Below are positions 15,313-63,400 of a DNA stretch of 64,000 nucleotides, one piece after another. Both the position numbers and the translations under genes were made by a program. Location of the stretch: assembly GCA_013398295.1 (NCBI GenBank), contig VZSF01008187.1, positions 260,326 to 324,325 of the forward strand, read 5' to 3'. The notes below the pieces were generated by a model that searched no databases, was not told the origin of the DNA, and saw nothing but the letters and a program-made list of their open reading frames with translations. The stretch's first letter is position 1; every line of letters starts with the position of its first letter. This DNA comes from Chionis minor (lineage: Eukaryota; Chordata; Aves; Charadriiformes; Chionididae).

Positions 15313-16023
15313 TTTTGAGGTGAACTAGTTCTTAAATAAATTTTAAAAAATCCGTAAGAATATATTTTCCCCTTCTAACACAGCTGTAATAAGTTTTCAT
15401 TAAAAGAATTCTGTCTAGGTGTTGGAAAATTCCTCTGGTAAGACACAACACCTTATTTAACTATATGATTTAACTTTGGACTTGACATGATTAATGTTCA
15501 TAGTCAGGACTCACCAGTTCTGGAGGAGCAGAAGAGATCTTTCACCGTTTCTGCTGTCTTTCCTGGTGGCATGCTCCACCGCCTAATAAAACCCTCCTTG
15601 AGATAACAAAGTTGTTCCTAATGTGCAACTTAAATGCTCCCCGTTGCTTAGTTTATCCCTGATGACTAATGAGAAGACCTGATACCTCCTCTTATTAAAA
15701 CATCCTTTCTTGCAGTTGCAGACAATTTCAGCAATTTTCCTAGGCTGAACAGACTAATTTTTCCTAGACTTTTCTTAGAAATTCTCTTCGACGTTACCAG
15801 GCATTGTTAGTGCCCAGCTGTGCATCTTTTCCCCTAGTTCCCAATAAAAACCCAGCACTGTGCAATAAGAGCACAGGTTTTGATGTAAACCACTCGGGAT
15901 ATTTTGCCCTGTTCATGCCAACCCTTTTAATATGCATCTTATTTACATTATCTACATGTATAGCAGCCATCCATGAAACAGAGTGACATCCCTCATGGGA
16001 AGCCGGCAGCATCACTTGTGCTT

Positions 16024-16166
16024 TTACATCTCCAAAGTCAGTTCTTTTTCTATTTCTTTCTTCTCACCCCAGGCCGTACCACTGGGCTGGGGCGGTGGGA
16101 CGACACACACCGACTTCGACCGGTTCTGCTTCACTTCCACTTCCCGAACCTTTTCCGCATGCCCCA
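16024..16166 (-). CDS. SLC9A2: SLC9A2-like exon 12 (probable terminal coding exon)
   Basis: After a strong acceptor (TTTTCTCTTCCCACAG), the frame inherited from exon 11 stays open for 47 codons to TAA. It reads [19 protein letters not shown], then [19 protein letters not shown], and ends IEKELTLEM. The charged, proline-containing tail suits an NHE C-terminus, but little direct similarity is visible. A donor-like GG|GTGAGA inside the exon leaves open a further downstream exon. Confidence 0.6.
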
Positions 16167-28100: not shown

Positions 28101-31100
28101 GTCTCATTTTATTTCTTTCACTCCATCTACAGAAGCAGAAAAGTTAGAGTTAGGTTCAAGTATAAACTTTTGTGCAAGTGAGTATCTTTCTGTCATGTTT
28201 GCGCCCCACCTAATGCAACACCAGCCTGACTGAGTATGTGGCTTCTATTCCAATGCCAATAATAACCCGTGGTTGGGAAGCTGCATAGGACTTCAAACCT
28301 GGAAAGGGACTGACCTGCAGCGGATACAGGTAAAATTGCAGACCTGTAGAGTCCCTGGAGGCACACAACATTTCAGAAGGATCATATTGATATCAGCAAA
28401 GCATATTGGAAAGCTCTGGCATTGAGTTGATAGATGCATCACTTACCCGAATATGGATCTGCTCTCCCACTGTGGGAGCACTCTCTCTTTTCCTCTTGAC
28501 AGCCAACAAGTCAACGAGAGGACGGATGGTCATTCCCTGCAGCATAACCACAAACACAAAAAACAGCCTTTCTTCGCATCAAGCGTTCTTAGTGTCAACA
28601 GGAGCTCACATACAAGCTTCAGGACGGGAGTAGGCAGAGGGGAGAAATGCTCCGCTCTCCTCATCTGGCATCTCCAAGACCACAAAAAGTCAACCGAAAA
28701 CTTCAAGGTCAAGGCTGTGGTTTGCTGCTGGTTGTAGCCTACCAGATGGAAAGGGGCTTGAAACGTTCAAAGTTCAAATGCCTGAAATGATAATGGTCCT
28801 TGAGACTTCACAGCACACAGCCTCTGCCAGCATTTGTCTGCTAACTTTTTGAGTGTTTATGTGTCACAGATCATTACTCCAATGATCTCGGATGGCTAGC
28901 TGGTGGCTAAGTTTACTAATCAAAGTATCCACCTGGTGGGAAGGGTCAAGGGAAGAGTTTTAATGTCCTTTAAGCTTCATGGGTGAACTAAAATGCTGTT
29001 GTGGTGTGTTTCTAAGGCTGGCTTTGGTATGAAATGACTTTTCTAGCACATGTTTACAGCAAAAATGATGGAGTAGTTGATGTTTATGACTTCTGAATGT
29101 CACAAATGCTGGCACAGAGGAGAGTTGAACACATTTTTAATTGCAGAAACAATTAATGTGTCATTTTAATAGCTAATAGCAATAAAAAATGCATAGCTAT
29201 TCAGAGTAAATATCATAAAACTCACACATTCAGAAATAACAGATATTACAAAAATTAAGTAGACACTATGCAATTTGGTCTCTTGCCTCCACTGGAAAAT
29301 CAGCTGCATTTGTTTTCATTTTAAAGTGACATTTTGGAGTTTTGTGACCAGGACTCCCAAATTTAGAAACATCTGAATTCCTTTGGCCCTTCCTGACATT
29401 GAGAGCATTATGGAAACCCCATGTGTCATTTTCAGGCCACATATCATTTCACAATGCTCCTGTAGGTCCCCTGTGATGCTCCTCCACCCACCAGAGATAA
29501 CTCATCTGAAGTGCATCACCCGAGGCTGGCAGCTCTATCACGGCTCACATAAAGTTTTTCTGCTGCCAGCAAACTAAGAGCTAATGGCCTGTGCAGGCAG
29601 CAAACAAACAAAAATCCCCAACTCTTCACAATTATATTTGCTAACAATTTCATGGAAGAGGTCAGAGGCCGATAGGCTGAGAGAGTGAACTTCAAATGGA
29701 GAATGTGGTATTTCATTTTTAAACCACACTGAAAGGCAGAACAATGAGGGCTTTTTGTGACATTCCAGACAAGCCCACGGCTCCTTGGAGGACCTTCTGG
29801 TCTATATGGCACATATCCAGGCCTGCTTGGAAGCACTGAGGAATTGACAATTGCTCAGTCAACCTTCGCAAAATTATTAACCAGGCTTGTTGTGGGAAGA
29901 GCTTTATGCAAGTGAGTTAGGCCAAAATAGATGAGTTTTCTGGGTTGTGTAATGCACTGATAGACTCATGTACGGGCAAGCCCAACTGCTTACATGTTGG
30001 TCATCAGTCTGTGTAGCACAAGGCTTTTCTGACAGCACGGTCAAGATTTCCAAGAAAATGAAGTGGGTTTGTGCTCTGACAAGATGCCTGGCCGGCCTTC
30101 ACCAGCTTCAATGGGCCCAAATCATCTCTCCCCTAGTTTCTGTCCTATCTTAACACAGACACCCCCTGCCAAGTCTGTATCGATATCACTGTGAACATAA
30201 AGAAAACTCATTGCACAAAATAACAACAAAAATAAAGTCCACTAGCCACAGGAGTTGTTTTGCAGCCAGTATTTCACTTGCCCTTTCCACCCAAAGTGAC
30301 ATGCACCATGAAAGATCCTGGGATATTAAGGACATTCACTCTTCAATCCTGCGTCCATTGTTGTGGCTGGCAGCAGAGCCACAGACGTCAGAAGCCGTAG
30401 GGCTCATTTGCAAACCCAGGTTTCTGAAGGTACATCTTAATACCTGCTTCTGTTATATTTACCTATGTTTTCTGTGCTGAGCTACCGCAATATTCTTCTG
30501 GTTCAGCTTTCAAGCAAGTTTACTTCCCTCCCTCTGCCCCCATTCTTGTGGTGGCCTCAGCTACACAATACTGCAGGTATCTGGAGCCTGAGCAAAGTCT
30601 GTCTTTATAGACGCTACGCTCCCGCTGAATGGCTGAAGGTCAAGGGGTCGCCCCGCTGACACATACCCACGGGGGACCCTGTTTAACTCTCACCCTTTAG
30701 CATGGAGATGACATCACCAGTTGAGCTTTGAGGTTACACAAAAGCCCTTTTCCCGGTCCTGGGAAGGATTTTCCGAAGCCTCAGCAGAATGGAGCTGCTG
30801 CCTTAGAACAACCTTTGTCTGAGACTCAAGAGCGTCTCTGCATGAGCGGACGTGCCTAGTGACCGTATCTTTTCAATTTCTGACCCACATTTGCATCTTA
30901 AAACTTGTCAACCTCCACCTAACTATGCTCTCCCCACCCCTGGCCCCTGCTCTCTCCTTTCAGTCTGAAATCTGCACCCGGTCCAGCTGCCTTGCAGGAT
31001 TCAGCTCCAAGCCCATCGGCACGTCAGACTCGTTGACCATTTTTTCAGCTCATGGTGTGGATTAGGTGGACGTGGGGAAGTACAGCCAACCCCAAGCCTC

Positions 31101-34100
31101 AGCTTTGCCCAAGGCCCACACCTGAGGGGTTCAGGAAGGTCAAGCGGAAGGAATTTGCTGTTGTGGGGTGATGCTCAGCCATTGGGTAGCTGTCGCCACG
31201 ACCCACCGTCTCCCAAAGCCCCTGCAGCTGCTCTGCTCCCTCCATCCGCGCACAGCCCTGCGTCAGCAGCCCCGCGTGAACCTCACGCACTTGACTGGAG
31301 GAGCTCCCAGGGAGCTTTTCTGCACAGCACCATTCCCAGACTCCCACCCCACTCGCTTCGGCCCCGTGCAGACACACTCTGAACTTTTTGGGGCAGAGCA
31401 CACCAGGTAGACATCAACCTTGCTCGCTTTGGGACCCCAATTTTTCCACCACATCCTCCTTCAAACGCGCCAGCTGAATGAAAAGGTGCATTTCAGAGAA
31501 ACCCCGACAGCAGCCTGCCCCTTACAGACTTGCTGCTGGGCAGAGAAGAGCGGGGAGACACATCCAAGACCCGCATCCCACAGAAGGCTGCAGGAATGCT
31601 TTCACCACTAGATGTCACAGCAACGCCGAGAGCTGCCGATCCTCCCGAGCAGGGCTTCATCGTGCCCAGGAGCTCAGTGACTACGTACAACCTCAGCCTG
31701 TGCATACGGGAGGGAAAACCTGTCTCCATCATGCACCTGGAGGGCTGCTAATTAGGGATCCGTGAAAAATAAAATAAAATATTAGTGAGGAGAGCAACAC
31801 CAGCACCAAGTTCTGCCCCTGCCCCAGCTGCAGCCAGCCCAGGCTGGGTCCTTGCCTGCTATACAACGGCGGTGGCACCTCCCGTATGCTCCCCAAGAGC
31901 AGCCCAAGCTGCAGATGCTCCCTCAGCCTTTCTCTAGGACTGGGCTTTGCAAAAATACAGCAGAAGTCAGTCTATAATAATTAATAAAATTAAAACTAGT
32001 ACATTCATGCATTGAACAATAAAAGCAGTATCTCAGAGCAACCGGTGGTGTGAGGGTCCACCTCCCTCTGCTACCGCGGCATTGGGGAGGTAACATGTCC
32101 ACAGCCACCCTATGATGTAGAAGGTTTGCCCACTTGCAGAAGGTTTACCCCTGGGTAGGAAACAACCCGAGAATTATGAGGGCAGAAAGAGAAAGCAGGA
32201 AGCAACAGGGCTTAGGGCTCAGTTATAAAAGAAAAATTAGAGGCAAATAAATCAAAGGTCCTACGACTTTTAGTTGCTTCTGATTTTCCTTGCTTTTATG
32301 ACAAGTAACACACCCAATATTTATTTTTTTTTCCAGTGGAGGAATTAATAACTGCGGCTGCTTTGCTGCCTGAATGTGAAAACCTCTCAGACATATATGC
32401 AAAACATTTTGACGAACAACTCACAACCATTATTGCTGCAACTGCTGGATGCCCCAATAAAATGGAACTCATTCTCACAAAATGTTAAGAAGCCACTCCT
32501 TCAAAATTAGGTCCCTTTAAATTGTCCTACTTGTGAACTACCAAAACCGAGATGACCAAACAATAAACCCCTTTTAAAATTCCTGCTGGCCATGTCCAGA
32601 GGGTTTGGAGTGTACCCGGTATATTCCTGGTCTTTGGGGATCAGGAAAACTGAACTTCATCATTGCACGGCTCAGGCAGCATTTCATTTCATGAAGGCCT
32701 AGAACAATATGTGGTTCTTACCTTGCTCAAACAGCAAACTATTTGTAGACTTTGATTCATGTTGGCTTTACTCTCACAAAAAAACATGTAAAAGCACTGC
32801 TTCAGAGAGAAAACCTATGCCAGCTTTGTTCTTCCCAATTTTCACCACTGCTATCCCAATAAGGGTGGACCAGATCAAAGATGGGACAAGTTATCACAGA
32901 AAATGCTAAAGCACATATTGTAAGTCAACAACTGCTAGTCAACCTCATGAACGTGTGACACATTCCCACACTTCCTGCCTCTTTCAGTAACAATTTTAAA
33001 TTTTTATATGCCTAATGGCTTGATGGGGGAAGGCTTTAACGACTGGTAAATCCTTGTATCCATCTAATGGTTTAGCACTAGTTATTTGTCTGGGAAAAAA
33101 AATCATGCTTATTCTTTACATGTGCTGGTGACACCAAGATTGTTTTTACCTGTACGAATACGGTAAAGAGGATGACGACAGTTGTTGCTGCAATGAAGAG
33201 CTTCTTTCTGTGAAAGTCAGGAAGCAAGAAAACCAAAGAGAAACAAATGGCCCCTCGGAGACCCCCATACGCGATAATGAATTGGTCTTTGCTGGTGATG
33301 GTGTTCACATGAAATCTGTTCACAAAGAAAGTCAGCACAAGAACTCCTGAAAAGGAGGAAAGAAGATGGGAGCAGATAAAAAAAAAAAAAAAAAAAAAAN
33401 AAAAAAAAAAGGCAAGCAATTAGATAAAACTCATAATCTTATGATATATTTTACAGTAAAACATCACTGAACTGGTAAACACCAACCATGAGGAACTGAC
33501 CAGGGCCCAAAGTGGTGTATTCCCAATATACCATTGCAGAAGGGCTTTTCTTCCAGCCTGGTCCAACAGGTTTGCATTTAATTTGTCCAGACAAATATTA
33601 ACCCCCAACACATTTCTGATTTGGGACATTACAAATGCCATTGACCGGCTGCAGTTTTGGGGGCTTGGTACAACTACAAAATTGTAGGTCGCTCATCTTG
33701 CAGCAAATCCTCTTGTTTTTTAATTCAGCCTTATGCTTATCACAGTCCAGTTGGGAAACCAGAGTTTCCTTCAGAAGGACTCTGAAGTCTACAGGGAAAT
33801 TTCAGCATCATCCCACTCCCATGACCACATATCCCCAGAACACACCATTTACCTGGTGACTCGGTATTAATCATCAGCTAAATACTGAACAAACAGTAAC
33901 TACTGGCAACATAGAAAGTATTAGCACATTCATTTTGATGGTAGTTAACTAAAGTTTTTAGGGCTATTCCATGGTCATGTGCCAGCTGAATATTTGTATA
34001 ATGATATGGAGCCAGACTCCAAGAACTGAAATGAAATATTGATGGATTTATTCTAATTGGTCATAACAAATGATTGAATTACTTGGATTATAAATGCTCT

Positions 34101-37100
34101 CAAGGCAAACCATCAGCGACAACTTAGCCACAAGTTACCCTCCAATTTCCAAAAATTTCCAAGCAGTAACTTGGATAAGTACCTATATCCTGACTGTGTT
34201 AATGTTGTTTCTTCACAAATCTTTCACTCAAAGATTTATACTGTATGAATTTAAGACTAGGTAAGGTGGCACAGCAATTGATGTAATTTATAGTCATTTG
34301 CAAATACACACACAGATCCAGAAAGGTACAAAAAGTCAGGCCTTAAATCAGTAAGCTGTGATCTTAGTACCAAGTACGGATATGATAAATATCTTATTTC
34401 CTGAAGATTAATGGCCATTTTGAGAACTGATGACACAGACAGTCATTGACTTTTGCTAGGAATTCGCTGGATCCACATCACTATTGCTTTTCTAAAAGGT
34501 GTTTGTAAAAGAACAAAACTTCAAAAATAGTGCGCTTGTAATGTACTTCTTCCCATACACGCACAGCTAAAAATATCTGAACTTTGACTGCACATCAGAC
34601 CGGTTTGAAGAGAACAAAAAAAGCTGGGGATGTTCAGGAATAGGGAACACAATTAACTGAACGTTACAACACCTTCCCCATCTGTGGAGCTCCGTGGACC
34701 TGGTGCCTTCAGTTTCAAGGTTCTTTGTAACTTAAAAATAAATAAATAAATAAAATAAAGCATACCTCCGATCACATCTGCAGCTACTGTAAAGCTCAGG
34801 CAGTGCTGATGATTTAAAGGAATAAAATTTACTTGAGCTGATATCCTGGCCTTTGTCTTAATTTAATCCTTCCTCATAAATTATTATTAGCATTCCCTAA
34901 ACTAATTCAAGACCAGTTTGCTCCAAGGGATGGCATACAATCAATCATTTTGAGCAGAATATGTTTTCTTCTAGAGAGATACCTTGGGAAAGTGCAGAAG
35001 GAAATCTCCCTGGTGCTTGGATAACAGTAGAGTACCAGCGCTGTCACGCAATTAATGCATTTTGATTTTTCAAGTCTCTCTGTTATATCACAGTAATTGC
35101 AGTCTCCAGGCTCCAGCAGAATCATTCCCCGCTTAAGAGTGCTGGGAGGGTCCAATGAAGACCAGAGCACAGCTCACACATTAACCCCAGCACTGTCAAC
35201 CCAAAAGCCCCCAATTCCCACGAGCAAACTCTGTGGGTTGCCCCCCATTTCTGGATCAGCGTCTTGAGCACACGCAGAGCTGCTGGATGGGTCCGAGCAG
35301 GTGAGGGGCGAATCTCAACCACCACCTCCACGGCAGGAGTTTCCCAGCCCGGCTTCCTGCACCGCCCTGCCCGGCTCACATCCCTCCGGCACACCTACGG
35401 CTCTCCAGCAAGGCGCTGCAGAAAAGGGACAACCTACTCAGGATCAGATGTGCAAGACGGTTTTCAACCCTGGTTTGTGTTCCTATTTAATTCAAGGGGG
35501 ATTTTGAACGGAAAGAGGGTTTTCTTTCCTGCCTGCAGTGCTGAGGCCTTCCTCTAATAATGTGATGCATAATTTGAGAATGCAAGACCTGTGTTTAGAG
35601 AGCCAGCGGATTTTCAGTGTAATGTTTTGTAATGTTACCATGCTCTTTGTGTCTTGCAATGAAGAATTTTTGAACTAAAAAAAGTCAAACTCAGAACTTC
35701 TTTTCATTTGAGCAAATAATTTAAGAGAAAACCACTTAATTGTAATAAAACACTTGAATATACACATAAGTGACTAATAAGCATGTTTCCAAGTGCATTT
35801 ATGGTGCATAGTTATTAAAACAAATGTTGGCATGTATTAACAGCTAATAAAACCCATTCTGCTATGTCTTGCTAATAATGGCCTATCCTATTTAAGCAAT
35901 TTCTCGAAGTGTCTATCAAATTTGAGTTCACTCTGTTTGACTCAGTGGTTTGGAAACATAAATCCTGTTGAATGTTTTTTAGGCTCTCAAATTCTTTGCC
36001 AAAATGTGTCCTCTATTTGCAGATATAGTTAAGATACAAAAATATCCATAAATGAGAAGGTAGGCACTCTGTACTCACTTAGGTGACAGGAACACTGTAA
36101 GAGATTCAGCCTCTCTGAACACCAACTCAGTGCAAGATCCAACTGGGGACAATGGTAAAACAGTGCATCTATTTTTCTGGTCATTTACAATGCAAAAAAA
36201 TGGGCTCCCAGAGTATTCTGGGACCAGAACTAGAGTTTTAATCATAACTGGTCTCAAGAAGATGATCTTTAGCCACAATTGTCAGGAGAGTATTTTCAAG
36301 CATAGCTCTCTTCCTCTTGTTATCACTAAGTCTTGGTCACTTTGTCACTGCAAGTTGGGTCAAACACTGCAATAGGTTTCCTAAGGAGGCTGGAGAGTCT
36401 CCATCCATGGAGACAATCAAAAGCTGTCTGGACGCAGTCCTGCTTAGCTGACCCTGCTTAAGCAGGGGGTTGGACCAGATGATCACTAGAGGTCCCTGCC
36501 AACTTCAGCAATTCCCCAATTCTGTGCAATTCTGTCATTCTCAGTCCTTATCTGAGGTTCTTGAGTAGGAGCAGAAGCATCCTCACATTTCAGGTCTCAA
36601 TTCTCATCTACCCAGCAGTAAGCTGGGCATGTGCTCTTCTGTAAAGCAGAAGAGCACCTCCAGGGATAGCTGTTTGAGGGTTTCTCCAGTCTCCCATTTA
36701 AGGATGCTGTTATACACAAACTTGTTAAGAATGAAATCCCTTAAATCTCTACAATTCAGAATATGCAGTCAGAGGCCCCATGGTCTTACACGGCACTCTG
36801 ATCTTGAGCTATGTACTTATAGTCTCCCTCCTACTGTGAAGATACCAAAGGACTAAGACACACTGAAATGGAAGAGATCGCGGCAATCAAAGGAGGCTCC
36901 AAGACAGGGGTGTTGATAAAATAGATGTCATGAAAACTTCTATTTAGCACCAGTGCTGTCTATGGTGAGTGCACAGACTAGGAAATTGCAATAAGATGCA
37001 AGATTTTCTATTGAGCAAGTGATGGAGAAACAGGGAAGCATCGGCTGGGATGTCCCACTTCAGTCCTTGCATTCCCATCTGGGGTACATACACATACAAA

Positions 37101-40100
37101 GTGAGCAGGACAGGATGATGGTGGGGACAGGAGCCTTCTCTTATTTAATAGAATCACACTTTTCATTCCCATAAATAATGATATATATAACAAAATAAAA
37201 TCTGTAACTTCACCATACCTAGGGCTCTCCAAATGAGGCAGAAAATGACGGTGAAGCAAATGTATGGCCAGTTCCACTCGTGATTTTCTCCAATGGTAGA
37301 AACTCCAAGAAAGATGAAGATGAGGGTATCACTAACACTGCTCCACATCTTCATGAAGTATTTGACTGTGGTGTGAGACTTCAGAGAGATGTTGGCCTCT
37401 ACATAACGTTTCATGCCCATGGCACATGCAATGATGCTGAGAAAATGAAAATGAGTCAATAAATTTTTCTACTTAAGCATAAAAAAATCAACATTTTGTC
37501 ATTTATAAAAAAAATAAGCTTCATCAAGTCTCAAATGTTTGCAGACATCTCACTGGGTAGTAACTCATTTCCTGCATCCAGCCAACACTATCAGGAGGAC
37601 CAGTGGACAATAAGATACTATATAGGTTGCCCAGACTCTCTGAATCTTGTTTTTTAACAGATAAACAACTCACTATCTATTGCATTTATCATAGTCACAC
37701 AGTGATACCAAGCATTAACTCCACCCAACTCTTCCCATCACAATACACTTGTTCTCAGTTCTTCAATTTTGCCAAACTCTCACCATCTGGGCTGAAGAGT
37801 TTCATGCTTAGGAGTCCACATTACCTGTTTTGCCCAGATGATAGAGAGACATTTGAGGGAATGGGAGACTTGCTTCTCAGCATGAGGAATGTGTAAGCAG
37901 GACTCCTGTGAGTTTGGCTGATATCTGGTCACTACAACAGAGTCTTGAAGGACTCAGAATTGATGTAGTTTAAGAGCAGTCCAAATGCTGTACTTCACTC
38001 GAGGGACCAAAGCTAATCTAAAATTGGAAAAACTCAAGCATACACTGTACCTCACACTATATACTTCTAAGCCTGACTGGACTTGCACTGTGTATTGTTT
38101 GGGCACAGCTAGGAAGCCATTGACTCCATGCAACCACGAGACAATAAAATGCTCAAGCAGACTCGTAAGGGTGCACAATGAACCAAGAAATGCTCTTGCT
38201 ATAGTCCGAACACTGACCTCCTCAGGTATTCCATATCCAAGGTCACTTCAGAAGTGTGCAGCACCAATTAAAACTTCTGCCTTGCAATTTTTCATGGATA
38301 ATTGGCTCTTCAAGTTACAGGGTACATGTGGTTAGCTTAATTTATCAGCTTTTCAAATCAATACATTTTCAGGACAGCAATCTTAGAAGGTCAAAACAAT
38401 TGAGTACTCAAAGATTCGAAACTCCATTTTTTATATTTTAACCTGGACAGAAACAGTTTGTTCTAAATATTGTAGAAGCAATAACAAAATGGCTTCACAT
38501 TTCTGAGATCTGACTTCCGTTGGTATTTGCTAAGGCCATCCACATGGAGTTTTATCGCATTAAAATTTCCTTTCACAGGGGACATCATGGTAACTCCCTT
38601 TACATTATATCACAGGCAGACAAGCTCACAGAGAAGTACATCCTCAGGTTGCAGAAGTGCACCTGGGTCTGGCAGACTGACTTTAAACACCAGCTGTGAC
38701 CAGGACAGGTAAGTGACCCATATAGATGCAAATAGGTGTTAAGATAGGTCATGGCCTCCGCAGCATATTATCCATAATGTATCCTCTCACCTAAGAACTA
38801 TTCAGAAAGCAGCCATGCAACTACTGCTTTGCAGTGAAAACATCACATTTAACCCCAGAATTTCACAAAGGAGAGTCTTTACATTATTTGGTCTTTGATG
38901 GAAAAATACCAAGGTTGCCACCTGGCCCCAGCGAAGAGCACAGTTTGCAAATGGGCAGAGCTGACTGTGCTGTGCTTGGGGTTTTACAACCTGTGTGAAA
39001 CCAAGGACCCCAATTCTCTCCTCCACAGCTATTTATTTATTTCAGGAAGACACGGTGGGCCACTGCATCGCTGCCCCTGATCTGCACCGCTGATAACGAC
39101 AGCAGAGCAAGGGTCACTTTTCCTTCTGGCTCATCAGTGAATCTCTAGCACATCTTCACTGCCACAACTAAGCATCTATTGTTGGACCAAGACAAAGGAA
39201 TGGACAACAGCTATATTCATTTCTGCTCTACTTGAAGCACTAGGAAAATCAGCAACATTATTATGGGAAAATACTTATCAGGTACTTGGTTGGAATAAAT
39301 AAGAAATTAGATGAAAAAAAACCCCAATACTTTTTCAAATGAAGATGTACTTCCATTCACTGTGAGTTACTGATTACTGGGCTTTGCATTCAAACAAAAC
39401 AAAACAAAACAAACCAACACACACACACATATATCTATTTCTTTCATTTAAAAATAATCATTACCGGTTTACCTCATTGCCATGAAAAAAACTATACTTT
39501 TTTCCAAGGAGAAAGAAACAATTGGGTCGGTCTGAAACTAAAACTGGTCTTCAGGGAGAGGACTTGTAGTAAATGCACAGGATATGAAAGGTCAAACTCA
39601 GAAAAGCCACGATACTCTTACTGGGGAAAGAGATCCTGTTTTATCCAGCAGCATGAGACCAAGATTCAAATCCCTTTTTGAGTTCACATCTTTCATCTCC
39701 TAAGAAAATGTACAAATACTTTAAAATATTCTGAGATTGCTTTTTTTTTGATTTATCATTTTTAGATTAAACTACTTTGCATAAAGCATTGAGCCGAAAG
39801 AGTAACTGGGATTGAACCACAGGCTAAAAAGAAAATAATAAATTCTTCTGTTTCTGTTATCTACCTCAAAATAGTTCCAGCTAGGAACTAAGAAGTCCAA
39901 TGAGTATTTATGGGCAAGTGACTTCCAGAGCTGTGGTTTGAGAACACTTTTTGGGAAAAGGGTATGGGTATTCACACCAGATTCACAGACATGGAATAAA
40001 CTTGACCTGTTCTGTCACAACTTCAAAAAAGGGCACTGTGACTAGGGCAAAGAGGGGAAAAAAAAAAGAAAAAAAGAAATCAAACTAAAAAACATCTGCA

Positions 40101-43100
40101 GAACTGTTTAGCAGATTGGGTTGCATTCACGGGTCTTTTTTGGATTATGTAGAATTGATCATTTTGGCAATCAAATTATTTTTCAAAGAAACAAACTGCC
40201 AAGATCTGCTTCTTATAATACAGTATTCCCTGGTCACAAATGAATGAATTGTTTGAAATCGAGATATATAAAAGAGGCATTTATAATTTGGCAATTATAA
40301 GACCAGCAGTGCAGGAATCAGCTGCCTTTGCAATTGTTTTGCTTCAGAAACAATGCATTATTCAAAAGAAGAGAAAATAGGTTCCATAATGGGTACAGTA
40401 GATGGCAATTGACAGAAGAAGGCACCATTAGGATTAAATGTTTTCTGCTCCATGATGATTAGGCAGCATATTTATTTCACTGTTCTGTCTTACGCACCTA
40501 TAAATAGGCTTTCTCTTACCTATTCCCAGAGCTAGAACTGTTTTCAGTAATGCTAGAATATTGCTCCTGTTAACCATTTGAGGAAACAGAATCTGCAAGA
40601 CATAGAAACAGTTTCTATCCAAAACAGTATCATTAGTTTTAAAATAGATCTCCCAAATACTCCTGTGTCTAGCTGGTACCTGACTTCATTTTTTAATTTT
40701 CTTTTTACCTTCATTATTATCAGATTTATAGTTGTTTACTCTGTAGCTATCAATGCAGCCTAAGTGCACTTTAGAGTCTTCAGAAAAATATGAAATAGTT
40801 GGTTGTGATCCTCGGCACCAGCTGACTTAGTTTAGGCAAGAGAACCAAAAGCAACAGATATTAGCCCACAGAAACCAGAAAGACTGAATCACTCACTCTG
40901 TTTTTCATCTGTCTCTGCTTTGACCATTAGGATTATTACATGTATTTTTTTCTCAGCACCTGCTCTGCAAGTGAAAAGCACGATGTCAGCCCAAAGCTCC
41001 TCTCTTAAAACTAAAGGATCTGGCCCCAAATTATTCATTTTATTGAAAGACCTACCCAGTAAAAATAAAAATAAATTAACTGTAGTACCTATAAATTATA
41101 GTTTGTGAAAGACTGAATTTACAGAAACAGATTCTTTTGCTTCGCTGATCCAAAAAGTTGCATGAGATACACGAGGTGGTATCTGATATGGCGTGGGACT
41201 CAGCTGCAGGACACAGGCAGGCCTTGTTTGCCCCATGTTGCTATAACCTGGTTGTACAAAAGCTTCACAGAGTAAACCCTTCTGTGCTCTAAAGTGTTTT
41301 TGAGATTGAAGAGTGTATAGGAGTGACTGTGCTGTAGTAAATTGCAAGCAGTTTGGGTTTAGTACCTTCGAATCCTGCATCTCTGACAACTTTGGCTGAA
41401 ATCAGTCAGCAGATTTCAAACATTACTGGAGATAGAGAGATGATGGATGACACCCTCACTCAGGAGACCAGAAAAACTCATGAGCTGCGTCTGAACTTCT
41501 TCTGGCAGTAAGTATGAATCTCCAAAGCAGAGGTTTCCATTAGAGCCCGCCACTCCCAAACAGTAGGAATCAGCTCCATAGGAATCAGCTCCATAGGGGT
41601 TACACAACTCCTACCCCATCACTCGCTTTTCTCTGTCACCGTAAGGTCTGCCTCAGCACATCTTCGGGTCCTTCACTCAAAGCTATGTGGTACGTAGGGC
41701 ATGGCGATCAGGAGGGGGCTAGAACAGATGTGCTGTAATCTCAGACCAAACCTTCATGAGGTTTTGATTAAATACTCCTTGCAGCTCTTCAAATGTTAGT
41801 TTTGACTGGGCCACGCATGGAAAATAACAAAGCATGCCAAGAAAGCCTCTCCTGGCTCTGCCAAACCCACTAGACATCTCACTGCTTGAATGTTCAGGGT
41901 TTCCAAACAAAAAATGTGGAGCTCAAATAAACATTCCTCAATAACCTGCACAAACCGATCAGCTGTCTGAAGCTTGCCCAGCGTGGTCATCTGGATCCTT
42001 TGTCACTGCAGCTGTTACCACTGAAGCGTAATTGTGTAATGTGTGAAATGAGGTTACACCTCTCAGCTCTTGCACAGGCTGCTATACTCACTGTTTGCTG
42101 CCATACACAGATTTCCAACTAAGCAAACACACGTTAAAACTTTTTCTGATACTTTTCAGTAAATAGTGCCAAAAAGCTCTCCCGGACAGATCAGACGCTG
42201 GGAAATACTTACGCCACAATCCCCGAAAGGTGAAACATTTCAGCGGTGAGGTAGGACAGATAGCTGTACAGGAAGACAAAGAGCGGTTCAATGACACGGA
42301 TGTCCTTGGTGAACCGTGTGGTAAAGGCAGAGGTCATCCCAAAAGTAAGACCTACTAAAACTCCTCCTAGCCCAACCACAAAGAATTTTCCAACTCCAGC
42401 AAAAACATCCACGCTTGTGATGGTTGGCATTTCACAGAAGGATCGAAATAGCTTGTAGAGCACCTGGATGAAAAATGGGAGAAGAAAAACAGCTGTTAAC
42501 AAGATAGTCACCGGACATGGCCATATGTAGCAATGCCATTAAAATACACGGCTGGGATTTCTGCCAAGGCAGGATCAGCACCCTTCTCTGGAGGTCAGGC
42601 TCCTACAACGGGGGTGCTGCAGCACTCATGTGCATTTCTGTCTCCAGACATAGAATAGAAGAGATGTTCACCTGAAAGCTTCTCAGGACCTCAGGCCAGA
42701 GAAGTGGACCAGGACTCCTCTGCTAGAAGAGGCTGTTGATGCCTTTTCCCTCTGCAGATCTTACGTCCCACCCCTCGGCACCAGACCATCCTTCCTCTGA
42801 ACAATAAATATTCAATATAAAGGCTTGTCCTTACCACTGTCACTGCGTCATTCAGGAGCGATTCACCAAAGACCAAAATGTGTAGCTTTTCATTGACGTG
42901 TATCTCTTCAAAGACGGCTAGCACCGCCACGGGATCCACAGCGGCGATCAAGCTGCCAAACAGGAGGTTGTGGAGCAATGACACATCTTGCAGGTGAAAG
43001 GCTTTCACCTGGCAGATCCCATACAGGGAAAAGCCAATCCCAAACACATTCCATATTGTCCCCACGACTGCGTAGAGGAGAATAGTGCCAATGTTCTCAA

Positions 43101-45072
43101 AAAAGGGACGGCTGGGCATGAAGTACCCAGCGTCAAGGACGATGGGTGGCAGCAGGTAGAGGAAAAAGATATCACTGTCCATAACAGGTGGTGACTTGTC
43201 GTTCAAGCCGTAGATGATTCCCCCCATGATGAGTCCTACAAATATCAATAAACAGCTTTCGGGAACAACAGAAGGCAGCCTGTTATATAGATGAAACCCT
43301 GGAAGGGGGTGAATAGAAAAAAAAAAATACACACCGTATTATCTTATCAGCCCAAACTGGCTGAAGAGCACCAACCAGCTCCTCGTTAGGGTGGGGAAGC
43401 TCCCCATGCTCCCACCTTCAGTAGGCTATGCTTTGGAGTAGTAGTGATAAATGCACACAATTAAGATGAAGTTGCTCAATCAGAAATTGGTTAGAAAATC
43501 TGAAAGATTACTGAAAATCCCAAATTTTCTAATATCACTGTTGGTTCTACTGCTCGTTCAGATTGCATTTCATCATAGCATAAAGTTAAATATATATTTT
43601 TAGGTAATACCCAAACAGACAAACTAAACAATCTGCATAAAGAATTATTTGGATGTAATCTAGTTAGCAGGCTGTCTTCAGCACTAACATAAATAGCAAC
43701 TGCTAATTTTAAACACAATACAGATTCTATACATCAGGAAAAAAAAATCACAAAAAGTAATCTCATTAACTATAAACGGTGCCACTTCTAATGTTAATAA
43801 TTAACAATTGAAGCTAAAGGCAACACTGAAAAAAGTCCCATCAAGCCAGCCTTGTGCAATGCCCAATGTTCGAGAGAACTGCTGACATCCACTACAAGTA
43901 CTCAAGGTGAGTTATTAAAAGAAAGAAATTGAAACAAACCCAACTGGAATAGGAATAATATGGGGAGGAAAAAAAACCCAAACAAAAAACTGTGATCATT
44001 TTTATTTCTTCATGCATGTTAATAGAGTTGACATCTCATCATATAATATGCAGAATAGCGAAACGAAACGACCATTTCTATCTGAAAGAAATTCTGATCT
44101 AAATGAATCTCAGAGGCTTCTCCCTTCTGAGGGAAAAAATAAGAGAAAAAAATGCTATAAAATAACTTTTGTAGCAGTAATTTAACAGAATTGATCACAA
44201 TTCCTGGAGGAAAAAAATACACAATTTCTACTTTTCTATGCCTAGTTTTGCAGGGGGGGAAAAAAAGAAAGATAGGCCCAAGTTATACAAAAATATGATT
44301 TCTCAGGTATCATCACACAGATAACCTCCTTGATGAAAAGAGATTTTATTTTAGGCTGTATAACACCCTGCACATGGACTGAATTATTCCTTGCAGCACC
44401 CTTTTTTAAGTCCAAGGAGTCTTCATTTTAAGATGAAGATGCCAGTGGACATCCTGCATGTAGTGTAGCTGGCAAGCTAATCGAGATGAATGCACACCTT
44501 GGTGCACACTGCAGTTAAATAAAATTCCTAGAAACCCTGATAGTTTTTCTAATAATAGCAACACCATGCACGGGTGTAAACTTCTAGATGGAAAACCATC
44601 ACTTCCAACCTAGAATGCAAGTGGGTCGTTATTTTCCATTCATGGAGTATGTCTAGCACACAGTATGTGCATGCTTAGGACCTGACATGTTATCTCATGC
44701 TCCAAGATTGGAGAAGAGGTGAAGCAAAGGCCACCCCTGCCCATACCATCCCCAAGGAGATTCCCGTCCTTCCCCACCCTCTCAAGATGCCTCACCTATT
44801 TTGGCCAAGGATGCAAGCATGATCCAGAGTGTGATTTCAAAGGGGACTTGAACATGCTGATAATCCAGAGAGAAAAATGCATGCTCTGAGGATTCGTTGC
44901 CCTGGGCTTCCTCGGCAGCCCAGCTGATGTTCTCCAGGATCACGTCCTCCGGCAGTGGCATCGGCGGGGAGCCCTGCAGGGCTCTGAGTGTACTGGCTTG
45001 GAGGATGGAGGAGAGCAAGGACCCAGCTAGGAGAGCAGCTGCAGCTTTGCACCCTGGCCTCGGCCCCTCCAT
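16024..45072 (-). CDS. SLC9A2: Na+/H+ exchanger of the NHE2/NHE4 clade (SLC9A2-like), 12 exons, complete
   Basis: Twelve exons join with consistent splice phases into 2193 coding bases (730 residues); human NHE2 is about 812 residues with a longer tail. Family role: electroneutral exchange of one Na+ for one H+ across the plasma membrane, mainly in epithelia. Visible landmarks are a hydrophobic signal-like start (about 8-27), the amiloride-region helix [18 protein letters not shown] (137-154), [11 protein letters not shown] (214-224), the ion-binding Asn-Asp pair at 242-243 in [19 protein letters not shown] (430-439), and a juxtamembrane tail matching the CHP-binding region (about 500-570). 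Exon 3 is clearly NHE2-like ([14 protein letters not shown]). Exon 2 mixes NHE2 features with NHE4 features ([15 protein letters not shown]). The symbol therefore rests on overall resemblance and could be revised by a tree. Introns run from about 0.37 kb (intron 2) to 4.8 kb (intron 3) and hold no other recognised gene. The last two exons are the least certain. Confidence 0.9.
18190..18256 (-). CDS. SLC9A2: SLC9A2-like exon 11 (probable)
   Basis: A 67-base open segment between acceptor TTAATCACAG and donor CACCG|GTAAGC. It fits phase 0 in and phase 1 out, reading [20 protein letters not shown] then FT. This tail region is poorly conserved among NHEs. Support comes from splice signals, phase agreement and a total exon number equal to the twelve expected for SLC9A2. 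Confidence 0.62.
22676..22810 (-). CDS. SLC9A2: SLC9A2-like exon 10
   Basis: A 135-base exon, phase 0 at both ends, acceptor AATGTGCAG, donor GGAG|GTAAG. It contains [20 protein letters not shown], which aligns with S-Y-N-R-H-S-L plus A-K-E-I-L-I in NHE2. The remainder (SESDTASSS) is diverged regulatory tail, Ser/Glu-rich. Confidence 0.88.
24120..24234 (-). CDS. SLC9A2: SLC9A2-like exon 9
   Basis: Acceptor TTTCTTTGCAG, donor AACG|GTATGA. It encodes an Asn-rich start, then [20 protein letters not shown] and [10 protein letters not shown], matching the LLSRNLYQIRQRT element of NHE2/NHE4. The exon ends in phase 0. Confidence 0.92.
24934..25098 (-). CDS. SLC9A2: SLC9A2-like exon 8
   Basis: Acceptor TTCAAACAG, donor TTGCT|GTAAGT. 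It encodes [20 protein letters not shown], then [20 protein letters not shown], matching the NHE2/NHE4 tail with its conserved PKSSIV and K/R-H-A-I-E elements. The end (about [10 protein letters not shown]) is variable in the family. Confidence 0.95.
26291..26361 (-). CDS. SLC9A2: SLC9A2-like exon 7
   Basis: A 71-base exon, acceptor CTGTTTAG, donor GACAA|GTAAGG. It reads [20 protein letters not shown] then WKDK, the family's D-H-x-x-x-G/A-I-E-D-(V/I)-x-G-H/Q block in the CHP-binding juxtamembrane tail. Two bases are carried to exon 8. Confidence 0.93.
27829..27990 (-). repeat. CR1-type LINE fragment (3' region, minus orientation)
   Basis: The plus strand reads GAATGGTTTGGGTTGGAAGG and continues through TTGCTCAAAGCCCCATCC and CCAACCTGGCCTTGAACACT, the reverse complement of a typical avian CR1 3' region. 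It lies in intron 6 of the exchanger. Only the 3' end is present, the usual 5' truncation. Confidence 0.88.
28447..28536 (-). CDS. SLC9A2: SLC9A2-like exon 6
   Basis: A 90-base exon, phase 0 at both ends, acceptor TGCTGCAG, donor CGG|GTAAGT. It reads [19 protein letters not shown] then [11 protein letters not shown], matching the end of the last membrane helix (G-x-T-I-R-P-L-V) and the start of the cytoplasmic tail. Confidence 0.93.
33150..33346 (-). CDS. SLC9A2: SLC9A2-like exon 5
   Basis: Acceptor CCTCCTTTTCAG, donor CAG|GTAAAA. It encodes [20 protein letters not shown] then [14 protein letters not shown], the strongly conserved arginine-containing core helix, and ends in FTVFVQ. After FLLP it reads DFHRKK where mammalian NHE2 has two more residues, a small loop deletion. 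An unresolved T-run (minus strand) lies just upstream of the acceptor. Confidence 0.96.
33378..33410. repeat. Long A-homopolymer with an undetermined base (N at 33400)
   Basis: About 33 bases of A on the plus strand, interrupted by N. On the transcribed strand this is a T-run 32 bases upstream of the exon 5 acceptor. True length is uncertain. Confidence 0.95.
34734..34760. repeat. (TAAA)n microsatellite
   Basis: Imperfect AAAT/TAAA tandem units within intron 4 of the exchanger. Confidence 0.85.
36374..36538 (+). repeat. CR1-type LINE fragment (3' end, plus orientation)
   Basis: It contains GGAGAGTCTCCATCCATGGA, then GGGGTTGGACCAGATGATCA and AGAGGTCCCTGCCAACTTCA, ending with short ATTCTGT-type tandem units, all CR1 3'-end hallmarks. 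It lies in intron 4 of the exchanger, opposite to the gene. Confidence 0.88.
37219..37436 (-). CDS. SLC9A2: SLC9A2-like exon 4
   Basis: Acceptor TTTTCTCAG, donor CCTAG|GTATGG. It encodes [52 protein letters not shown] and [13 protein letters not shown], all conserved NHE core segments. Both phases match the flanking exons. Confidence 0.96.
39391..39434. repeat. Compound (CAAAA)n-(CA)n microsatellite
   Basis: About four CAAAA units followed by an (AC)n stretch and a short AT tail, in intron 3 of the exchanger. Confidence 0.88.
41565..41594. repeat. 15-bp direct tandem duplication
   Basis: The unit AGGAATCAGCTCCAT occurs twice head to tail without mismatch. It lies in intron 3 of the exchanger and overlaps no exon. 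Confidence 0.85.
42213..42463 (-). CDS. SLC9A2: SLC9A2-like exon 3
   Basis: Acceptor TTTTCATCCAG, donor GTGGC|GTAAGT. It starts [12 protein letters not shown] and continues through [17 protein letters not shown] and the [20 protein letters not shown] block to HLSGIV. This exon gives the clearest NHE2-type signature, because NHE4 differs at most of these positions. Two bases are carried to exon 4. Confidence 0.96.
42835..43298 (-). CDS. SLC9A2: SLC9A2-like exon 2 (residues 93-247)
   Basis: Acceptor CCCTTCCAG, donor GTG|GTAAGG. This largest exon carries the [14 protein letters not shown] helix, the [11 protein letters not shown] element and the essential Asn-Asp pair in [10 protein letters not shown]. 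All catalytic landmarks expected for an active exchanger are intact. The exon ends in phase 0. Confidence 0.97.
44796..45072 (-). CDS. SLC9A2: SLC9A2-like exon 1 (residues 1-92)
   Basis: The ATG at 45070-45072 begins MEGPRPGC followed by an Ala/Leu/Ser-rich hydrophobic stretch resembling a cleavable signal or first membrane segment. An N-glycosylation-type NES precedes [24 protein letters not shown], the conserved first core helix of NHEs. The frame is open further upstream but only to a GTG codon, so this ATG is the best start. The donor is ATAG|GTGAG. One base of a Gly codon is carried to exon 2. Confidence 0.92.
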
Positions 45073-59361: not shown

Positions 59362-59367
59362 TTTATT
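59362..59367 (-). terminator. Polyadenylation signal AATAAA for the TASL-like gene
   Basis: A canonical AATAAA on the minus strand lies about 93 bases past the TGA stop. It implies a very short 3' UTR. It is the nearest canonical hexamer downstream of the stop. Confidence 0.55.
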
Positions 59368-59459: not shown

Positions 59460-60383
59460 TCACGATGTAAAACGCATCCTGTAGCTCTTTCTCATGCATG
59501 CCGGGTTTGAGATTTGTAAGTCTGGAGTACTAAATTCAGAGCTATTTCTATTGGCAGTGTTGCGCAAACTAAACAAAGCTAAAGAGTGCAAGAGCACTTC
59601 TCTGGCTTTCAGTGTTTCTATATTACACTCCTGGGATATCTGAAAGCTTATCTGATTCAGGTTATTCCTTATCAAACTGCATGTGAGGAGGTTTGTTACA
59701 GAACCACACCTGGTCAAGTTTTCTTCAAAAAACTCTTTATAGAGCTCTGTCACTTTTGTTTCCATGTACTTGTTGAGCATGGAGTTTGAAAGAGGCTCCT
59801 CACAGAGCATGATACTCCTTTCTCCAGCTTCATCTCCAGAGAAGGACTTTATACTTGGCTTTCTGGGATGCTCACATAAAGGGGAATGACCCAGAGGAAT
59901 ATCTATGGACAGCAAAACAGGGCCATCAGGAAGCTCATCACACATGTGGTCCAAAACACAACCCGAATCACACAGATGGTCCCCCACACGGTCTCCCCCA
60001 ATATGTAAGTCGGGATAGTTTTGATAAATGCTGTTGCATGACCAGGATCGATACAAATCCAACTGTTCAGTGTATTGTTCTCTTTTGGGGATATGTAAAG
60101 CTGGTGACACAGTTCCTTTAACAAGCGTTTTCTGATCTTTTGCAGGTATTTCTTTTACAGCTCTCCATTGAGGACCACTCCTGTGTTTCGTTTTGCTACT
60201 TTTAGCAGAGATCTCATCCTGCTCCACATGTCCATCAGCAAAGCCTTTAATTTTTGGGTTGTCTACAAGTTTCTGTCTCCAGATTCCCTCTTTATCCTTT
60301 TTGGATGCATGAGATTTGCAAGGCTTATCTTGATGACAGCTTTCTTTATATATGAGTCTAATTAAGATGCCTTCTGCCAACAT
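59460..60383 (-). CDS. TASL (CXorf21)-like innate immune adaptor, complete single-exon CDS
   Basis: The product has 307 residues; human TASL, recalled as about 301, is also encoded by one coding exon. Similarity to TASL is recognised in four places. The N-terminus MLAEGIL resembles the SLC15A4-inserting start of TASL. The block NSIYQNYPDLHIGG is at residues 117-130. The block PLSNSMLNKYMETKVTELYK starts at residue 197. A third block (LNQISFQISQ, then NIETLKAR) covers about 243-261. At 288-292, DLQIS fits the pLxIS consensus by which TASL, STING, MAVS and TRIF recruit IRFs; its serine codon is 59508-59510. The start is the first in-frame ATG after a splice acceptor at 60434-60435, and the stop is TGA. 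TASL binds the lysosomal transporter SLC15A4 and links TLR7/8/9 to IRF5; the same role here is inference. Mammalian TASL lies elsewhere, near GK and NR0B1, so this is probably a paralogue. Family membership is secure, function is not. Confidence 0.88.
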   Translation of the reverse strand: MLAEGILIRLIYKESCHQDKPCKSHASKKDKEGIWRQKLVDNPKIKGFADGHVEQDEISAKSSKTKHRSGPQWRAVKEIPAKDQKTLVKGTVSPALHIPKREQYTEQLDLYRSWSCNSIYQNYPDLHIGGDRVGDHLCDSGCVLDHMCDELPDGPVLLSIDIPLGHSPLCEHPRKPSIKSFSGDEAGERSIMLCEEPLSNSMLNKYMETKVTELYKEFFEENLTRCGSVTNLLTCSLIRNNLNQISFQISQECNIETLKAREVLLHSLALFSLRNTANRNSSEFSTPDLQISNPACMRKSYRMRFTS

Positions 60384-60433
60384 GACGACAAGCGGGAGTA
60401 ACAGTCTAATCACCAGAGTTCCATGTAGTCCTG
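59460..60433 (-). other. Coding exon of the TASL-like gene with its 3' splice acceptor
   Basis: Read on the minus strand, a pyrimidine-rich tract ending in CACCCACAG precedes base 60433, a strong acceptor. At least one upstream, probably non-coding, exon should therefore lie to the right. The 50 bases between acceptor and ATG contain one out-of-frame ATG that terminates after four codons. In the main frame they are open and hydrophobic. Confidence 0.75.
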
Positions 60434-63400
60434 TGGGTGAAAGAAAGACAGGCAAAGTACCTCAAACTTACTTGGACAAAGAGGAGCAATAATTTTAAAA
60501 AACCTGAACAATGCACTTTTTGTAAGGACTGCGATTTTTCTTTTTCCCTAGAATATTTATTTTTAGTAAACAGTAAACCACAATTTTCTACAATTTTAAC
60601 CTCTATACCATGTCAACAAAAATCATTCTGAACTGGGCTCCTCATCTGTAATATCACTTCTGTTCCTAGGTATCTCTTCTGCATTGTGGCTAGTTAAGAT
60701 AGGTCATACTTAAGAGCTGGAGAAATCAGCAGGACTGTTGTACTTGTCTATCCCTACCATCAGTTGCAAATCAACTTTTTCCATTGAAAGTCAACAATTT
60801 CTAAGAGCTAAAGAGGTGACATAGGAAGGATATCTAGATCAAATGCAGACATAGAGGTTGACACTGAATTGGCCTGAGCCCTCCCGTGAGGTGCTAAGGA
60901 GCTTCAAAAGATGCTGATAGTTCTTCAGGACTGCATCCAAAATGCAGTTTACATACACAAGTGTTTTTAGAGTCCCTCTTAATGTTGATTTTAAAAGATA
61001 TAAATTTGTCTTCCCCAATAGTGAAGTAATGAGTAGTATGTTTGTGCATCTATAAGCTCCACAGTTTTACTAAATGCACAGGAAAAGCTAAACAATAAAA
61101 TAAATTGTAAATAAAATAAAACCAAACAAAATAATCTACTACGTTTAATGATTCCTTATCATTCCTTTTGAATTCACCTACTGTTGAAATCAATGGGAAT
61201 CTTTCCATTTAGAGCTAAGGCTGACCTAAGCTAAGGAAAAGATCATCACAACTCCTCTTTTGGAGGAACTGGAAAGATGAACACAAGAAAATCTCTGTTC
61301 TTCAAATGTCTTTTTAATCTCTGCATAATTCAAGTACCTTCACACACCTCTAGTGCGCTCATGGTTTGAAACTGGGGGGAGAGGCAAGGGATGAGGCAGT
61401 TATAATGAAGAGCACACGGTCAGTCTCCCAAAGAACATAACATACTGCTATGATGCTTGAAGCACACCAAAAAATCTACCTACATCACAGACAATTAATG
61501 TTCAATACTTTTCACAATGCTGCCAATTTACATCAGTAGTAATGTCACACAAGGCACTAGATAGCTCTCCACACAAACAAAACTTCTGCAAATTTAATAT
61601 GATATTCGATATATAACCTGAAAGATCCTCCTCAGTCTACTCACTTGCTTCTAACTATCAGCAACCAAACCATATACTCTGACTTACTTGTTCTGCAATG
61701 AAACTTGATACACTGCATCACTTTTTAATCCCATTACTCCTTCCAGAAAGCTATTGTAAAACTCCAGTTACTTGAGAGACGGAAAGTTTCGACTTCCCTC
61801 CTAAGTTTACACATAGCCACAGTACAACTGATTTTTTCTTTTCTGGGGTTCTTTTTAGGTTAAATTCCCTCCCTGAAGCTGAAGGCAACACTGGAATTGT
61901 AATATGCCTGCAAGTGAGACCAAAGCAGATGAGAAAGGCAGTACACCATGCCTTCTCCTGGTTACACTGGCAGAACTGTTCGCTTTATCTATGGAATCAT
62001 TTACATACGTTAAAAAAAAAAAAAAAGCAGGACATTTTCTTAAGCATTTAAGGAGCATAGGAAACCAGGTGCCATTTTCAAAAGAGACAAGAGTACTTGA
62101 CAGTCTAAATCTTGCTGAACATCGATGGAATTTGGAATGCTGCATGCTCATTTGCTTCTGAAAAAGAGGACGCAGGTACCCAGATCCCTACATGCCAGAA
62201 AATTTTACTGTGTTGCTTTGAAAATGCTCATAGTGCTCATGTAAGAGCTAGAATATGGTAATCTTAGTAAAATTGCTCTCTTTCAAATAAAGTAAATGGT
62301 GCCTGCATCCTGGAAAAGAGCACAAGGGGAAAAAACCCAAAGGCACAAAAAGCCTAGACTTACCAATCCTAGTAGGGTAAGAGAGGCAGATCATCACATA
62401 GCCCAGAACTCTTACTACAGCTGCTGTAAGAGAATGGATTCTTACATGCTCTTTCTTCACCGCTGTCTGTGTGGAAAAAAACCTGACATACGCGTGATTT
62501 AGTTCCTCTTCTTTTCCCTTTAAAACAGAAGTGATCCCACTGGAAAAGTGACAGCAGGTCTAAAAGAGGATGTTGAAGAAGCCATGAATTGAGATGTTTC
62601 TGACTGGTGCAATGCTGACGAGTTGCTAACTGCCATACTACGTCATTCAAAAACAACAAAGACTATGAAAGGTCTTTGGGTGCCTGAGCTTCACCAGGCT
62701 GTTCAAAATCGAAACTGAATTCCACCAAACACTTCTGTCTACAGAAGTTCAGTTTTGTTCCATCACCCACCTGACTTACAGAGGCGATGTTAATTACAGC
62801 ATTTCCCCTTTTGAAACAAACAGCTAAATTTATAGTCTTGCGACCTTCTTCTGATGAGGAAAAAGTTGACAACTTCTTTTCATCAAGATGTTGATGAAAT
62901 CTCATTTGTCTATAAAATGCAAATATTGAGAATGTGCCCTCTGAAAGCAGTAGCCATCAGACAGCCATGGACAATCTTGTTGCTCACTGACCAAAGCCAC
63001 TTTCTCTGGGCTCAGAAATTACCTCGGCCCCAACGCCATGTGCGAGGCGCCCCCACAGTTTTTTTAGTGTGTCCTTCTCACAGAAGCTGAAACTGAGCTC
63101 ATGCCGCAAACTGCACCATTCCCCCAGCACTAGATACAGTCCGTGGACAGCCTGGAGAGTCTTCTGTCAATTCCTTTTCTAAATTTCCTGTTTCTCAGAA
63201 CATAAAAAAAAAATAAAAATCAGAAGCTGAATCTCATCCAGGTACTAGACAAAAGCTGTTAAATAGATGCTGCTTAGTGTAATGATAGGAGCAAGGCATG
63301 AATGTAAAATAAAACTAGAGTGTAAAGATAACATTACAGCAACATATTGATTGCAACCCATCATTCAACATGTTTTGGCAGCAAAATAACGATGCGCCTT

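Follow-up and report, generated by a model that had tools for sequence, protein, structure and literature searches.

The DNA stretch analyzed here (64,000 nucleotides of the Chionis minor assembly GCA_013398295.1, contig VZSF01008187.1, positions 260,326 to 324,325 of the forward strand; hereafter the window) carries on its minus strand a gene for an adaptor of the TASL family and an SLC9A2-like Na+/H+ exchanger gene (Table 1). The adaptor open reading frame (ORF) begins with an ATG at 60383, ends with a stop codon at 59460-59462, and has no internal stops over its 307 amino acids (aa); plus-strand frame 1 across the same interval holds many stops. PF15133 (TASL) is the sole Pfam family found in the ORF (E = 2.1e-102; 343.4 bits, cut-off 27), with ORF residues 1-293 aligning to positions 1-299 of the 300 in the profile, and a sequence search of the PDB (E ≤ 10) returned a single match, the TASL chain 9irc_B (residues 195-293, E = 6.2e-15). 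With the ORF as query, a protein search found 199 homologues (E ≤ 1e-3), and counts of sequences refer to the best 120 of them. The closest homologue among the matches listed is a TASL-like protein of Pluvialis apricaria (90% identity over the full length); within the best 120 of 199, birds reach at most 90%, turtles, alligator, and tuatara 56-64%, and mammals 49-56% identity, the mammalian sequences mostly bearing “-like” names or none. The PF15133 score and the number of homologues rule out a chance ORF, and we conclude that the ORF is a real, intact bird copy of TASL2, one of the two TASL genes (TASL1 and TASL2) separated below. The first-pass annotation, made from the letters alone, had called a TASL-family adaptor with an intact frame and both ends preserved, and this holds from the MLAEGIL N-terminus to the C-terminal pLxIS motif DLQIS, which we confirmed on the minus-strand translation.

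A second search, seeded with a C-terminal stretch of the PDB TASL chain, yielded 159 homologues, the best 120 of which are TASL1 of mammals, birds, turtles, tuatara, and squamates. In an 84-sequence tree, 44 TASL1 sequences (16 bird, 10 reptile, and 18 mammal) are separated from 40 TASL2 sequences (19 bird, 7 non-avian reptile, 13 mammal, and the window gene) by a split with support 100/100 that is found in 100% of 200 bootstrap trees. Mammals, non-avian reptiles, and birds occur in each half; the window gene is placed inside TASL2 with the shorebirds Pluvialis and Numenius (100/97). An identical split is seen in a quick tree of 86 sequences, and a FastTree of all 240 listed sequences plus the window gene sets the TASL2-search sequences and the window gene apart from the 120 TASL1-search sequences across one branch (support 100). 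Uniting bird TASL1 and bird TASL2 in one clade is worse by 362 log-likelihood units (approximately unbiased test, p-AU = 5.6e-39). Furthermore, in a 52-sequence alignment (the window gene, 30 TASL2, and 21 TASL1 sequences) the window gene has the TASL2 state at 13/13 columns in which TASL2 and TASL1 are each fixed, at a level of at least 95%, for a residue of their own, and at the 23 columns separating 8 mammalian TASL2 from the 21 TASL1 sequences it shows the TASL2 state at 19, the TASL1 state at 1, and neither at 3. Its identity to the 21 TASL1 sequences is 27-33%.

Our reading, to which we give a probability of about 0.85, is that mammalian TASL2 (Gm6377 in mouse) has its avian orthologue in this ORF, that two TASL genes were already present in the amniote common ancestor, and that the protein would act through the SLC15A4/IRF5 mechanism outlined below. 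The earlier proposal of a second TASL gene, paralogous to the GK-type one, is borne out by the 84-sequence tree and by the presence of both genes in related birds, and no tree was obtained in which the window gene is the only, orthologous TASL. The idea that it provides an extra route particular to birds does not stand, since the gene clusters with mammalian TASL2, already characterized in mouse (PMC11759703; this and the other papers cited were available in part, and what we draw from them is limited to those parts). It is not a bird invention, because the trees indicate that the two TASL genes predate the bird-mammal split.

With respect to co-occurrence, both proteins are found in 22 species (15 birds, 2 turtles, and 5 mammals), a set to which the window species does not belong. 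Taking contig size as a stand-in for contig identity, with paired sequences in some species possibly derived from different assemblies, we observe TASL1 and TASL2 on contigs of unequal size in 20 of the 22 species and of equal size in two (Lepus europaeus and Mus caroli). Pluvialis apricaria has TASL1 (P0198) on a 222.7-Mb contig and TASL2 (P0002) on a 25.3-Mb contig. The separate TASL1 found together with TASL2 in the 15 bird species is 286-292 residues long and is presumably linked to GK, as we carry over from the human gene. Among the best 120 of the 199 homologues, no TASL2 sequence bears the name of a squamate or a primate, and we suspect that TASL2 was lost in these groups. Squamates do appear with TASL1 and SLC9A2-like sequences. 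As for the origin of the pair, our guess is that both genes were left over from the genome doublings of vertebrates.

Conservation is concentrated in a few segments. Across the 52 sequences, M1, L2, and E4 are invariant and Y12 is kept in at least 90%; the Met1 start and Glu4 of a candidate SLC15A4-binding segment are thus present at one end of the window protein, and DLQIS at the other. Between them, the block at residues 109-131 has invariant columns at L110, C116, I119, Y123, D125, L126, I128, and G130. Averaged across 89 bird or bird-like TASL2 sequences, identity to the residue of the window protein is 0.87 for residues 1-13, 0.93 for 109-131, 0.79 for 132-192, 0.84 for 193-270, and 0.92 for 281-293; two linkers are at 0.69-0.70 and the tail is at 0.53. 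Met1, Leu2, Ala3, Glu4, and Gly5 are constant in all of these sequences that cover them, and Tyr12 is found in 99%. The strict pattern [ST]PxLxIS occurs in 111/120 TASL2-search sequences (best 120 of 199) and in 119/120 TASL1-search sequences (best 120 of 159).

Table 1. Features of the TASL2 locus and its neighborhood in the window
Feature	Positions	Strand	Basis
TASL2 coding sequence	59460..60383	-	307 aa, single coding exon; ATG-to-stop open frame and PF15133
N-terminal segment, residues 1-13 (MLAEGILIRLIYK)	60345..60383	-	Counterpart of the SLC15A4-binding segment of TASL (role: PMC10502012, available part)
Internal conserved block, residues 109-131 (DLYRSW...LHIGGD)	59991..60059	-	Mean identity 0.93 in 89 bird or bird-like TASL2 sequences
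C-terminal helical bundle (predicted), residues 200-280	59544..59786	-	AlphaFold2 and match to 9irc_B
pLxIS motif DLQIS, residues 288-292	59508..59522	-	L289 and S292 invariant, I291 in at least 90% of 52 sequences
Putative 5' exon	62364..62638	-	Donor ATTG|GTAAGT after 62364; matches N-terminal extensions in bird gene models at least up to 62638
5' untranslated part of exon 2	60384..60430	-	After acceptor cacccacag|GACTAC; contains an out-of-frame 4-codon upstream ORF
AATAAA polyadenylation-type hexamer	59362..59367	-	3' of the stop codon; motif match only
SLC9A2-like Na+/H+ exchanger gene	15987..45072	-	tblastn with Larus and Alca SLC9A2-like proteins; same strand as TASL2

The AlphaFold2 model (built with the 52 sequences) has a mean predicted local distance difference test score (pLDDT) of 52 and a predicted template modeling score (pTM) of 0.28, with 213 of the 307 residues below pLDDT 50, residues 1-191 being mostly in that range. 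Blocks within residues 201-270 reach mean pLDDT values of 85-94, and helices are modeled at 200-226, 229-240, 242-253, and 257-280. A predicted disordered body with a C-terminal helical bundle would be what is expected of the TASL family, for which the same layout has been described (PMC10502012).

Outside the coding frame, splice motifs and bird gene models point to a putative two-exon layout, a 5' exon followed by the coding exon, with exon 2 starting at 60430 and its acceptor lying immediately 5' of the coding part. The Falco model (P0022) matches in parts at 62638-62362 and then at 60485-59463, and in mouse Tasl the coding exon is likewise single (PMC11759703). The out-of-frame 4-codon ORF lies 41 nucleotides (nt) upstream of the TASL2 ATG. 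An in-frame upstream ATG is located 78 nt (spliced) before 60383, inside the putative exon ending at 62364, and its use would add 26 residues to TASL2, including the hydrophobic stretch GTLVIRLLLPLVV; in the Falco model, the residue matching this ATG is not Met.

The first-pass annotation had also reported an NHE gene next to the adaptor, and we do find one: exchanger exons run from 45072 to 15987 on the same strand and match along almost the entire Larus protein. With five exons joined, the exchanger is 96% identical to a Cariama “sodium/hydrogen exchanger 2-like” protein (94% of the query covered), and the closest matches listed (best 120 of 3792) are bird proteins of that name at 96%, some bird sequences of the same gene being named “sodium/hydrogen exchanger 2” (Gallus, Cuculus) or “SL9A2.” Identity to four mammalian SLC9A2 sequences (Cervus and Physeter, named by the source; Neovison and Cricetulus, assigned in this analysis) is 74-75% for three and 69% for the fourth, and 60% to an NHE4 sequence. 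A quick tree of 43 sequences, which has a single NHE4 outgroup on a long branch and no bird sequence from the SLC9A2 side, separates 38 SLC9A2-like sequences, including that of the window, from the four mammalian SLC9A2 sequences (Shimodaira-Hasegawa-like approximate likelihood ratio test, SH-aLRT, 100), so that the window exchanger groups with neither SLC9A2 nor SLC9A4. Its nearest PDB matches are NHE1 and NHE3, and NHE2 and NHE4 are not among them. The SLC9A2-like clade contains sharks, amphibians, reptiles, birds, monotremes, marsupials, and placentals. TASL2 and the SLC9A2-like gene are on equal-size contigs in 14/17 pairs, three of them from mammals (Tupaia, at 987 kb, Dipodomys, and Perognathus) and some on scaffolds as short as the 30.4 kb of Tauraco and the 59.8 kb of Chlamydotis; the three mismatches likely come from different assemblies, given their very unequal contig sizes.

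The companion gene bears on the location of the locus, which had been assigned to the IL1R-cluster region. We rejected this assignment, since the exchanger falls outside the mammalian SLC9A2 sequences and in an SLC9A2-like clade that extends from sharks to mammals and accompanies TASL2 in birds and some mammals; IL1R genes themselves were not searched for, and we consider it very unlikely that TASL2 lies in that cluster. The Callipepla model P0096 (SH3BGRL-type domain PF04908) and the Willisornis model P0085 (same first residues) fuse SH3BGRL-like sequence into TASL2, and these two fused models suggest that SH3BGRL lies upstream of TASL2, beyond the window; a search of the window with the Callipepla model gave no SH3BGRL match. 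In human, SH3BGRL lies at Xq21, a part of the X whose avian counterpart is chromosome 4A; the IL1R cluster has a different location, which in chicken is chromosome 1. Among the matches listed, the TASL2 contigs of many birds are about 18-28 Mb long and those of four Sylvioid songbirds 84-103 Mb. Sylvioids are reported to have neo-sex chromosomes involving 4A, and both size classes fit a placement on 4A. For Prinia subflava there are two TASL2 sequences, P0052 on a 103-Mb contig and P0086, flagged as low quality, on an 8.8-Mb contig; they may stand for both halves of a neo-sex chromosome.

A 2025 paper described TASL2 as a paralogue that mouse has and human lacks, and its available part states that other vertebrates have Gm6377 orthologues (PMC11759703). 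Mouse TASL2 binds mouse SLC15A4 via its first 8 residues, requires its pLxIS motif for activity, and rescues IRF5 activation in cells deficient in TASL; the TASL/TASL2 double knockout phenocopies SLC15A4 loss (PMC11759703). A peptide made of residues 1-13 of chicken TASL binds PHT1/SLC15A4, with Met1, Ser3, and Glu4 contacting PHT1 in the model of the complex; mutation of Glu4 abolishes binding, and an extension before Met1 weakens or abolishes it (PMC10502012). The window protein has Ala3 and Glu4, and as it carries the binding and pLxIS features of the chicken and mouse proteins except Ser3, SLC15A4-dependent IRF5 activation beside TASL1 would be expected. Specifically, the free N-terminus (Met1-Leu2-Ala3-Glu4) would insert into the cytosol-facing cavity of endolysosomal SLC15A4/PHT1 and hold the largely disordered TASL2, with its C-terminal helical bundle, on the endolysosome. 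Stimulation of nucleic-acid-sensing endosomal Toll-like receptors (TLRs) would then lead to phosphorylation of the serine in DLQIS, and the phosphorylated motif would recruit and activate IRF5, or possibly another interferon regulatory factor (IRF) in birds, alongside TASL1. By analogy with mouse TASL2 and with chicken and human TASL1, we infer that bird TASL2 may bind SLC15A4, activate IRF5, and be partially redundant with TASL1. We are least sure of the IRF partner in this scheme, given that among birds IRF3 was found in palaeognaths only (PMC12220609, available part).

Several observations weigh against an orthologue doing this ordinary job. Bird TASL2 is conserved less than TASL1 in 105/105 species pairs among the 15 birds (means of 77% versus 86%), and residue 3 is Ala in every bird TASL2 sequence that covers it, with MLSE in 113/120 TASL1 sequences listed. 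The strict pLxIS pattern is missing in 9/120 listed TASL2-search sequences: five have LQFS (P0089, P0090, P0091, P0093, and P0095; four turtles and one sequence grouping with turtles), two have LQVS (Hirundo and one other), and the models P0082 and P0096 lack the motif end. The upstream ATG, if used, would bury Met1 and should block SLC15A4 binding, and partner specificity of TASL2 can apparently drift, as mouse TASL2 binds mouse but not human SLC15A4 (PMC11759703). Foldseek comparison of the AlphaFold2 model with the PDB gave 25 matches at E ≤ 10 and none at E ≤ 0.001. Finally, the TASL trees have no outgroup and no fish or amphibian TASL and are rooted at the midpoint, so the duplication is dated only as pre-amniote.

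Some of these points would suit a true TASL2 orthologue that has changed its job while keeping both ends, working with another IRF or transporter or competing with TASL1, which we consider unlikely. The lower conservation of TASL2 and Ala3 in place of Ser3 speak for such a change, as do the failure of mouse TASL2 to bind human SLC15A4 and the seemingly dominant-negative behavior of a pLxIS-mutant TASL2 (PMC11759703), and the finding of IRF3 in palaeognaths only (PMC12220609) would imply that IRF use is rearranged in other birds. Nevertheless, nearly all bird sequences retain Glu4, Tyr12, and the pLxIS block, on which the ordinary job depends. A more specific version, somewhat less likely again, is that bird TASL2 is re-tuned rather than spare, coupling TLR7/TLR21 to an IRF other than IRF5 or vying with TASL1 for SLC15A4 and so setting a threshold; it draws on fast evolution with both ends preserved in lineages with a reduced IRF set.

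The alternatives that deny orthology or function fare far worse. A single bird TASL that was merely relocated is very improbable, as 15 bird species, including Pluvialis apricaria (P0198 and P0002), have a separate TASL1 in addition to TASL2 and the tree splits the two at 100/100. Even less credit can be given to a diverged duplicate of TASL1 specific to birds or sauropsids, which was the framing of the first-pass annotation at a stage when mammalian orthology had not been examined: the p-AU value rejects a single bird clade of TASL1 and TASL2, mammalian TASL2 sequences cluster with those of birds, the window gene shares the mammalian TASL2 state at 19/23 diagnostic columns, and the SLC9A2-like companion is present in three mammals as well. 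Equally hard to credit is a decaying pseudogene, for which one could cite the absence of TASL2 in human (PMC11759703) and the LOW QUALITY annotation of the second Prinia copy; a frame open over 307 codons, and conserved segments at 0.84-0.93, as opposed to the 0.53 of the tail, the 0.69-0.70 of the linkers, and the 0.79 of residues 132-192, are at odds with decay. We thus retain the reading of an avian TASL2 orthologue.

The trees place the TASL1/TASL2 split before that of birds and mammals and show birds keeping both genes, so that the one-TASL condition of human is derived, and removal of TASL1 alone in avian cells may mislead. Literature searches for TASL, TASL2, CXorf21, and Gm6377 found no paper title on bird TASL2, and published work on chicken “TASL” probably covers one of two genes. 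A chicken “CXorf21,” which may be either TASL1 or TASL2, is tabulated with a large ratio among the macrophage response genes to avian leukosis virus subgroup J (ALV-J) (PMC6404279). The pairing of TASL2 with the little-studied SLC9A2-like exchanger also offers a practical synteny marker for tracing TASL2 loss.

Compared with known systems, bird TASL2 adds a new member to a kind already known from the mouse protein, which binds SLC15A4 and activates IRF5 (PMC11759703). Mouse TASL2 and the window protein belong to the same orthology group and have a similar length, an MLxE start, and a pLxIS end. On the mouse side, the TASL2 clade includes a Mus caroli “CXorf21-like” sequence (P0101), presumably the Gm6377 orthologue, whose contig size equals that of Mus caroli TASL1 (P0122); the window protein is 52% identical to it and differs in having Ala3-Glu4-Gly5 where P0101 has Gly3-Glu4-Ala5. 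Mouse TASL2 is X-linked (PMC11759703), whereas contig sizes point to apparently autosomal locations in most birds. The chicken TASL studied with PHT1 has Ser3 (PMC10502012), which would fit TASL1 and not the window gene. TASL1 (CXorf21) itself has in common with the window protein PF15133, a mostly disordered body with C-terminal helices, an N-terminal SLC15A4 segment, and a pLxIS motif, and is set apart by its separate clade and an identity of 27-33%. Further afield, MAVS, STING, and TRIF serve sensors and organelles that differ from those of TASL. Their likeness to TASL is at the level of the motif, an IRF-recruiting pLxIS combined with organelle anchoring (PMC11759703).
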